Below are positions 24,022-49,812 of a stretch of 64,000 nt of DNA, piece by piece. Numbering within the stretch: position 1 is the first letter of the stretch; every line of letters starts with the position of its first letter. This DNA comes from Halichoerus grypus (lineage: Eukaryota > Chordata > Mammalia > Carnivora > Phocidae). The stretch is from assembly GCF_964656455.1 (NCBI RefSeq), contig NC_135726.1, positions 6,272,001 to 6,336,000 of the forward strand, given 5' to 3'. The position numbers and the translations under genes were made by a program. The notes below the pieces were generated by a model, which had not been told where the DNA came from, ran no database searches, and worked only from the letters and a program-made list of their open reading frames with translations.

Positions 24022-24851
24022 GAAATATGTTTAAATGCTTTTCGATACTTTCAGGTTACAATCTCTGCTGCTTTAAAACAGGGTCTTCCCAATGAACGTG
24101 CAGTGGCATGCAAGATTCTCCCCCCTTCTCCTTCTCTTGTCCTCAGAATCTGGGTTCCTAAAGGCTGGTGTATTTGCACAGCACCGAGGATGTGACATGG
24201 TCTCTTACTCACTGGCCTCCCTTGGATTTCTCATCCTCACTTCAGCCCCCAGCCCAAGGCTGTTTACCAAGTGGGCTCTGCTGCAACACACCCCCACCTG
24301 CCCCAAGGGCACCCAGATACTTCATTCTTAGCTCTATTCCCTATTGTCTCCAGGAGCTTCAGTGACTTTTCCAGACATCCCCACTTCCACCCAGACCCAA
24401 GGGAGTCAAGATGGGAGTGGTGGGAAGAGGTTTTCAGTCTTTCTCTGGCTAAATAGACCACCTTGTGGTATACTTCCCTCCCAGGTAACCCCAAGGCAGT
24501 GTGGAAGCCCTCCTGGGGGGAACCAGTTAGGAGCTTCTCAGATCTGGGATTCTCAGCCCCTCTGGGTCTGTATCCAGCACCTTCTCCCCATGCCTCATGG
24601 AGTTTTCATCAGAACAGAAAGTAGGTCCCACACTGGTTTCCTAAAGGCTGGTGTATTTGCCCAGCACTACTCAGCCTGATGTCTCCAGCTCCCTCCCACT
24701 AAACCCAAAGAGCTTTCCCCCTCCTTTTGTGGCCAAGGTGCTTACTCTGTGGCCTAGAGCAGGGGTTCTCAGACATGGGTGTGCATCACCTGGAGGGTTT
24801 GGTACAATACAGGTTGCTGGACCCACCCCCAGAATTTCTGACTCAGTGGAT

Positions 24852-29261: not shown

Positions 29262-29648
29262 CTTCCTACCCCCCGCCCCCCACCACACTCCTGGGTGGGA
29301 TGTGTGACACTCCTCCAGGAAGCTCCCAACTGTCTTAATGTTAATGCCTTACTAAAGGGAAAAACAACCTGAACTTGACAATGGCAAAGGCCTCCAGTAT
29401 CTTGGAGGTCCTCTTTCGTATATGAAAATCCTTTTGAAACCTCCCTTTTCCTTACCTCCCCCAACTCCCAAGTATATAATCAACCACCCCTCATAATCCT
29501 GGTGCAGCAGCTCTCTCTGCCCATGGGTCCTGTCCCTGTGCTTTAATAAAAACATGTTTTTGCCCCAAAGATGTCTCAACGATTCTTTCATGGCCATTGG
29601 CTCCAGACCCCACTCCACCAAACTTCACCTACATTCCAAAACCACATC
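29262..29648 (+). mobile_element. ERV-type LTR, copy A
   Basis: The LTR is shared with copies at 41967, 42700 and 43204. It has a TATATAA box at 29473-29479, an AATAAA at 29545-29550 and the shared 3' end CATTCCAAAACCACATC. Its 5' end is shorter than copy B. It lies antisense to HSD17B2 in intron 4, with its 3' end about 45 bp from the exon 4 splice donor. No retroviral gene is attached, so it is a solo LTR. Confidence 0.8.
29473..29479 (+). promoter_or_regulatory. TATA box of LTR copy A
   Basis: TATATAA sits 72 bp before the LTR's own AATAAA, the normal promoter-to-poly(A) layout of a short-R LTR. The same box is present in copies B (42221-42227) and C (42867-42873). Confidence 0.65.
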
Positions 29649-29694
29649 CAAAGGACCTTCAGCATCCCTGGGGCTCTTAGGCTTAGACACCTAC

Positions 29695-41966: not shown

Positions 41967-42398
41967 TGATGAGGGAGCAGAAGGCAAGCTGAGGACAAAG
42001 CACAAGCTGACACCCCACAAATCCCACCCCCACTACTCCTGGGTGGGATGTGTGACATTCCTCCAGGAAGCTCCCAACTGTCTTAATGTTAATGCCTTAC
42101 TAAAGGGAAAAACAACCTGAACTTGACAATGGCAAGGGCCTTCAGTATCTTGGAGGTCCTCTTTAGCATATGAAAATCCTTTTGAAACCTCCCTTTTCCT
42201 TACATCCCCCAACTCCCAAGTATATAATCAACCACCCCTCACAATCCTGGTGCAGCAGCTCTCTCTTCCCACGGGTCCTGTCCCGTGCTTTAATAAAACC
42301 ACGTTTTTGCACCAAAGACTTGTCTCCAGAATTCTTTCTTGGCCATTGGCTCCGGACCTCACCCCACCAACCCTCACCTATATTCCAAAACTGTATCA
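41967..42398 (+). mobile_element. ERV-type solo LTR, copy B (longest)
   Basis: This 432-bp unit starts TGATGAGGGAGC and ends TATCA, in the TG...CA manner. It has TATATAA at 42221-42227 and AATAAA at 42292-42297. The flanking four bases are TTCC and TTTC, a one-mismatch duplication. It is the most complete reference copy of the family in this window. Confidence 0.8.
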
Positions 42399-42699
42399 TT
42401 TCTCACTCTATCCCACGCATACCCCCATCACAGATGTGGCTAATGTAAAAACAAAACTGCACTTAGCGCAGTACTTGCTTAGGACATACCAAAATTGAAT
42501 GTTAGGTTTCCCCACAACAGATTCTAAGTAGCCAATTCTAATAAAATACTTGGGGTGACTTACTTACCCAGTCACCAATGGGATTTATTTTAACCAACCA
42601 CGTACAGACCTATAGACTCTTTCTGATGTGGGAAACAAAGGCAGAAGAAATGTAAATGAAATTAAACGTCCTTATAACTTGCAGCTCATTGACAAATGC

Positions 42700-43016
42700 T
42701 TTAGGCAGGTGGAGTATAAGGTTCTTCCAGGAAACTCCTGACAGTCTTAATGGGAAAAACAACCTTAGCTTGACACTGGCCAGGACTCCAGTATCCCAGG
42801 AGTCTTCTTTAGCATATGAAAATCCTTTTGGAATTCCCTTTGTCTTTACTTCCCCCAACCCCAAAGTATATAATCAATTGCTCCTCACAGTAGCTCTTTC
42901 TGTTCATGGGTCCAGTCCCCGTGTTTTACTAAAACCACCTTTTTGCATCGAAGACGTCTCAAGAATTCTTTCTTGGCTGTCCACTCCAGACCCCAACACT
43001 ACTCCAAATCACATCG
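42700..43016 (+). mobile_element. ERV-type LTR, copy C (diverged, truncated)
   Basis: It shares CTTCCAGGAAACTCC, ATATGAAAATCCTTTTGG, TATATAA at 42867-42873 and AAGAATTCTTTCTTGG with copy B. The poly(A) hexamer is degenerate (ACTAAA) and the 5' part is missing. Confidence 0.75.
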
Positions 43017-43203
43017 TTTCCACCCTCTCTCGTAACTGCAAACTTTCTATCCTTACTTAGTGTAGCCACCATGACTATAGCGTCCCACCCTTTCTCCAGA
43101 AGATTCCACATTCTACCACCTAGTTTGTCTGTCTCAGGGAAATATTCAGTGACTTTGTTCCCTGGCAAGTGAATAAACTCAGCGTCCATGTTGTTGACAC
43201 TGT

Positions 43204-43398
43204 TGATGTAGTTTTGGAATACAGGTGGGGTTTGGTGGGGTGAGAAGGTTGTTCTTCCCTCTAGTAAGGCATTAACATTAAGACAGTTGGGAGCTTCCTG
43301 GAGGAATGTCACACACATTCCACCCGGGACAGGTCGGGGGGAGGTTGCAGGATGTCAGCTTGTGCTTTGTCTTCAGTTAGCCTTCTGCTCCCTCATCA
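43204..43398 (-). mobile_element. ERV-type LTR, copy D (inverted, internally deleted)
   Basis: Read on the minus strand it starts TGATGAGGGAGC and ends CTACATCA. It is flanked by an exact 4-bp duplication CTGT at 43200-43203 and 43399-43402. About 235 bp containing the TATA and poly(A) region is missing relative to copy B. Confidence 0.82.
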
Positions 43399-49535: not shown

Positions 49536-49663
49536 GAGGAAAGATTGCGGAACCAGCAGGGGGAGGGAGAAACTCAACCAGAGGAGAGGTGTCTAGCAGC
49601 TGAAGATCTTGGGGAGGAGAAAAGAAGCATCTAAAAGGGTTTTCATTAAAATGAGTTTTGTGG

Positions 49664-49755
49664 GGCAGTAGCTCCTTCTGCCCATGGGTCCTGTCCCTGT
49701 GCTTTAATAAAATCACCTTTTTGCACCAAATAAATAAATAAATAAATAAGTAAAT
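49664..49755 (+). mobile_element. L1-type retrocopy of a short LTR-derived RNA
   Basis: An exact 16-bp duplication AAAATGAGTTTTGTGG at 49648-49663 and 49756-49771 starts at a TT/AAAA site, the preferred L1 endonuclease target. The insert body (49664-49727) matches LTR copies A and B. It runs from 31 bp after the start of their TATA box to 17 bp past the AATAAA (49706-49711). A TAAA-rich tail follows. The first base is an extra G not found in the LTRs. All three features fit a capped, polyadenylated RNA copied by L1 machinery. Confidence 0.8.
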
Positions 49756-49812
49756 AAAATGAGTTTTGTGGTATAGGATATAACCCTTTCTTCAATCTTT
49801 GCACAAAATCTT

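Follow-up and report, generated by a model that had tools for sequence, protein, structure and literature searches.

Within the window, meaning the whole 64-kb stretch of DNA that was analysed, a 92-bp insert (49664-49755, + strand) lies between two exact copies of the 16-bp sequence AAAATGAGTTTTGTGG, which start at 49648 and 49756 and constitute the 5′ (49648..49663) and 3′ (49756..49771) copies of a target-site duplication. TT precedes the 5′ copy, so that the target-site sequence reads CATT/AAAATGAG, an L1-endonuclease-type TT/AAAA site. The flanking repeat shares one more base (T) leftward and none rightward, and no third copy of AAAATGAGTTTTGTGG was found on the + strand of the 64-kb window. 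Read on the + strand, the insert consists of a single G at its 5′ end (49664), 63 bp with homology to what is presumably the R region of an LTR family (49665..49727) with an AATAAA poly(A) signal inside it (49706..49711), and a 28-bp A-rich tail of (AAAT)n with one G (49728..49755). The G and the 63 bp of LTR homology together make up a 64-bp body, and the first AAA of the tail also matches the LTR, leaving a 3-base ambiguity in the boundary between body and tail. The features by which L1 retrocopies are recognised are thus found here: a duplication in the range of ~5-20 bp (16 bp, exact), a TT/AAAA-type site, and an A-rich 3′ tail (28 bp of (AAAT)n) following a poly(A) signal (AATAAA at 49706). 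Both the sequence and the repeat coordinates confirm what the earlier note had described at this site, namely a 92-bp insert with exact 16-bp flanks, a TT/AAAA target and an A-rich tail.

The flanking repeat was compared with a random control and with other repeats of the window. Among 20 random 64-kb sequences generated under a first-order Markov model of the window, a 16-mer recurring at 40-700 bp was found 0 times, and a chance origin of the flanking repeat was set aside on the basis of the duplication, given this control, and of the tail. The real window contains 24 exact repeat pairs of at least 16 bp at the same distances after complexity filtering; as read from their coordinates, several of these are located at SINE ends and others are neighbouring repeats that match each other. 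A survey of SINE heads that counted only those with a flanking repeat of at least 9 bp, heads lacking one being left out, returned 14 in the window, with repeats exact over 13-17 bp in 9/14 and repeats of 9-11 bp, which may be chance, in the other 5. The sites of SINEs with exact flanking repeats include ATT/AAAA (two) and ATT/AGAA (two). These duplications and sites resemble those of the insert, which therefore looks like the other products of the L1 machinery in the window. Motifs at both ends of the SINEs point to a caniform carnivore, though not to a dog. Separately, the segments 24155-24177 and 24638-24660 form an exact 23-bp direct repeat pair, 483 bp apart.

The LTR family to which the body belongs is represented on the + strand by copy A (29276..29650; ends approximate, 5′ end uncertain), copy B (TGATGAGG...TATCA, 41967..42398; ends placed by eye) and a diverged relative, copy C (42709..43000; ends approximate), and on the - strand by copy D (TGATGAGG...CATCA, 43204..43398; ends and flanks by eye). 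Of the two copies previously recognised, at 29262 and 41967, both are present, but the homology between A and B (BLAST) starts only at 29276, the alignment upstream of that point being unconvincing; beyond this pair, the family also includes C and the internally deleted D. A TATATAA box is located at 29473 in A and at 42221 in B, with R-like segments at 29504-29569 (AATAAA at 29545-29550) and 42252-42316, respectively. C has a TATA at 42867, lacks 11 bp directly upstream of its R-like segment, and carries ACTAAA as its poly(A) hexamer in place of AATAAA. D has undergone a large internal deletion that removed the region from the middle of U3 to late U5, including TATA and R. Judged by eye, D has ACAG on either side, and the flanks of B match imperfectly (TTCC vs TTTC). 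The parent LTR may be ERV1-like, TG...CA ends and a 4-bp duplication being the criteria of that class. Copies B and C on the + strand and D on the - strand, all of the same or a related family, lie within ~1.4 kb (41967-43398).

The insert body is identical to A at 59/66 positions (29504-29569), to B at 58/66 with one gap (42252-42316), and to C at 52/60 (42888-42947). Its matches are confined to the R-like segments of these copies, bearing out the claim that it corresponds only to the central part of the LTR. When the insert, A, B and C are aligned, 64 of the 66 columns are gap-free; three of the 64 (columns 5, 12, and 53) are informative, and all three unite the insert and C against A and B. 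Private differences number one in the insert (position 11) and seven in C, and column 49 is three-way. Since the insert groups with C at 3/3 informative columns, its parent was probably neither A nor B. On this comparison, the parent would probably fall outside the A/B pair, its nearness to C being beyond the reach of four short sequences.

The private position 11, the three-way column 49 and the three states unlike A/B would also fit a different genealogy, in which the insert is a member of an amplified, LTR-born SINE-like family and had an older R-only insert, not an LTR, as its template. Against this genealogy, a profile search of the 64-kb window revealed no R-only copy besides the insert. 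The R-segment profile, derived from A, B, C and the insert, returned its four source places and nothing further with E below 1 in the window, the LTR profiles having been built from the very copies that they then recovered (A, B, and C, plus the insert for the R profile). In addition, the insert appears to have no promoter of its own, so that every further copy would depend on a promoter supplied from outside, and membership of such a family is considered very improbable. Exact LTR R or TATA-R patterns gave 0 matches in viral and prokaryote collections, in neither of which carnivore DNA is expected.

At the 3′ end, the last base of the body that is not an A lies 16 bp past AATAAA in A, or 19 bp when the three ambiguous As are included. 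The body therefore does stop just past the signal, as had been proposed, at a measured 16 (or 19) bp and not at the 17 bp given previously. A distance of 16-19 bp fits normal cleavage, and the location of the 3′ end just past AATAAA points to polyadenylation of the source RNA at the site provided by the LTR itself. Taken with the duplication, the TT/AAAA site and the A-rich tail, this 3′ end makes L1-mediated retroposition of an LTR-polyadenylated RNA a well-supported origin for the insert. An internally deleted LTR copy (D) does exist in the window, and the insert could in principle be another remnant of this kind: what deletion left of a longer LTR integration, with an unrelated flanking repeat. 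Yet the exact 16-bp duplication directly abuts the body and the A-rich tail, and the tail occupies the place where U5 would be; on the duplication and the tail, this origin was set aside as having very little probability.

At the 5′ end, two explanations of the source RNA have to be weighed: a transcript confined to one LTR from start to end (R-only), or a longer RNA whose copy was truncated. The body starts 31 bp past the first T of TATATAA in both A and B, so that the spacing previously reported for A is upheld when measured from 29473 and is the same in B. A spacing of ~31 bp from TATA is that expected of a TATA-directed start, and ~21 bp is below the usual range for such a start. Compared with an RNA running from R start to R end, the insert begins 31 bp from the TATA of A and B and ends 16-19 bp beyond AATAAA, and its start lies about 21 bp from the TATA of C. 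Both ends thus fit the TATA and AATAAA of A and B, and it is plausible from these spacings that the insert's 5′ end corresponds to the LTR's cap site.

The G at the 5′ end had been interpreted as an extra base. It does stand where A and B both have T, but the TGG upstream of it matches the LTR and is also the end of the target duplication, meaning that neither the 5′ boundary nor the "extra G" is fixed to the base. If those upstream bases are counted, the homology of the insert to A grows to 62/70. One reading that fits is a body start with a cap-derived G, the TGG match having arisen by chance (1 in 64 by a simple count); a TGG microhomology junction with one substitution fits too, and at least three matches in four random bases are expected in 5% of cases by the same kind of count. 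With an ambiguous 5′ boundary and a different spacing in C, the assertion of the earlier note that the insert maps R to base precision was too strong.

A microhomology junction, formed at the TGG common to target and LTR, is also what would be anticipated if the insert were a 5′-truncated, L1-mediated retrocopy of a longer RNA that stopped by chance near the U3/R border. The longer source would be either viral, namely genomic or spliced RNA of a provirus with its end in the 3′ LTR, or a host transcript that terminated in a solo LTR. This origin predicts the 3′ end equally well, and the truncated copy would look identical. It also gains from the fact that L1 copies most often end up 5′-truncated, and from the assumption that R-only templates are presumably far outnumbered by long RNAs whose 3′ end lies in an LTR, which counts against an R-only source. 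In an earlier HERV-W pseudogene dataset, very short sequences of 0-0.5 kb are reported to have been the commonest size class, again in favour of truncation, although fragments of one element may have been counted apart there (PMC5016936). On the other side, truncation requires a coincidence: under priors that were assumed, not measured (log-uniform over 30-6000 nt, or uniform over the U3+R of B), a random truncation would fall in the 8-nt TATA-compatible stretch in ~2% of cases. It also requires the T-to-G difference beside the junction. The coincidence favours an R-only RNA, but the argument is void if the parent had C-type spacing, since the spacing holds only for A/B-like parents. Truncation of a longer RNA is accordingly regarded as a serious possibility that falls somewhat short of probable.

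The preferred explanation is an R-only RNA from one LTR, copied by L1. The duplication, the SINE parallels, the 31-bp spacing, the 3′ end, the 5′ G, the ~2% coincidence and the MoMLV and HERV-W precedents described below count in its favour, and the single copy, the grouping with C at ~21-bp spacing and the TGG microhomology count against it; overall, it is judged slightly more probable than improbable. Under this explanation, Pol II would have started at the TATA-directed cap site within an ERV1-like LTR, which was probably either solo or the 5′ LTR of a provirus, and the transcript would have been cleaved at that LTR's poly(A) site, giving an RNA of ~64 nt plus its poly(A) tail. Proteins of L1, acting in trans, would then have carried out target-primed reverse transcription at TT/AAAA, leaving the 16-bp duplication, and the tail would later have turned into an (AAAT)n microsatellite. 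We infer L1 as the copying machinery, the RNA as R-only and the 5′ end as the cap site from the features of the genomic copy. With respect to the original proposal of a short RNA that started and ended in one LTR and was copied by L1, the L1-type copy of an LTR-polyadenylated RNA stands; the 5′ start does not stand to the same degree, and that the RNA both started and stopped in one LTR is a plausible further step that depends on the 5′ end of a single copy.

If the R-only explanation is true, genomic retrocopies could reveal where dead LTR promoters had their cap and cleavage sites, and it would follow that RNAs polyadenylated close to the promoter in an LTR get as far as the L1 machinery; a truncated copy, in contrast, would amount to ordinary genomic debris. 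A broader scenario, in which solo LTRs of this family work as complete minigenes, producing capped and polyadenylated ~64-nt RNAs that L1 copied repeatedly, giving dispersed R-only inserts that mark the cap and cleavage sites of extinct promoters, is speculative and unlikely. No title among the literature matches listed concerned R-only LTR retrocopies, which does not establish their absence from print.

The features of the insert can be compared with several known systems. As in MoMLV-type retroviruses, the poly(A) signal lies in R, between the cap and cleavage sites (PMC3694450, PMC12789967), an arrangement that makes an R-only RNA possible. Where retroviruses carry the poly(A) signal in R, mechanisms exist that keep its 5′ copy from being used (PMC12789967). 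A downstream splice donor represses early polyadenylation in HIV-1 and foamy viruses, whereas control in MoMLV is described as independent of the splice donor (PMC3694450, PMC12789967), and MoMLV has a weak poly(A) site, the cost being accidental premature polyadenylation (PMC3694450). Solo LTRs, having no such viral splice donor downstream, could thus yield R-only RNAs. Premature polyadenylation of the MoMLV type concerns viral transcripts, whereas the RNA considered here is deduced from a genomic copy. The insert also resembles SINE-R, a "SINE of retroviral origin" (PMC7353768), and SVA, in being a retrovirus-derived piece moved by L1; SVA is a composite, multi-copy family, in contrast to the insert, which is a single copy with no further domain. 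A further parallel is provided by the HERV-W processed pseudogenes, whose 5′ and 3′ ends fall at nucleotides 256 and 326 of LTR17, respectively, corresponding to the R boundaries (PMC5016936), and which carry poly(A) tails, TT/AAAA sites and 5-15-bp duplications (PMC5016936; same signatures in PMC5537654). Likewise, the insert would derive from ERV RNA mobilized by L1 in trans, with putative ends at R boundaries, a tail and a TT/AAAA site, its duplication being 16 bp as against 5-15 bp. HERV-W pseudogenes, in contrast, are copies of proviral RNA (R-U5 ... U3-R), recognised by proviral sequence between two partial LTRs, whereas the insert holds ~63 bp of R-like sequence only: one R-length piece, from another ERV family and in a carnivore-like host.
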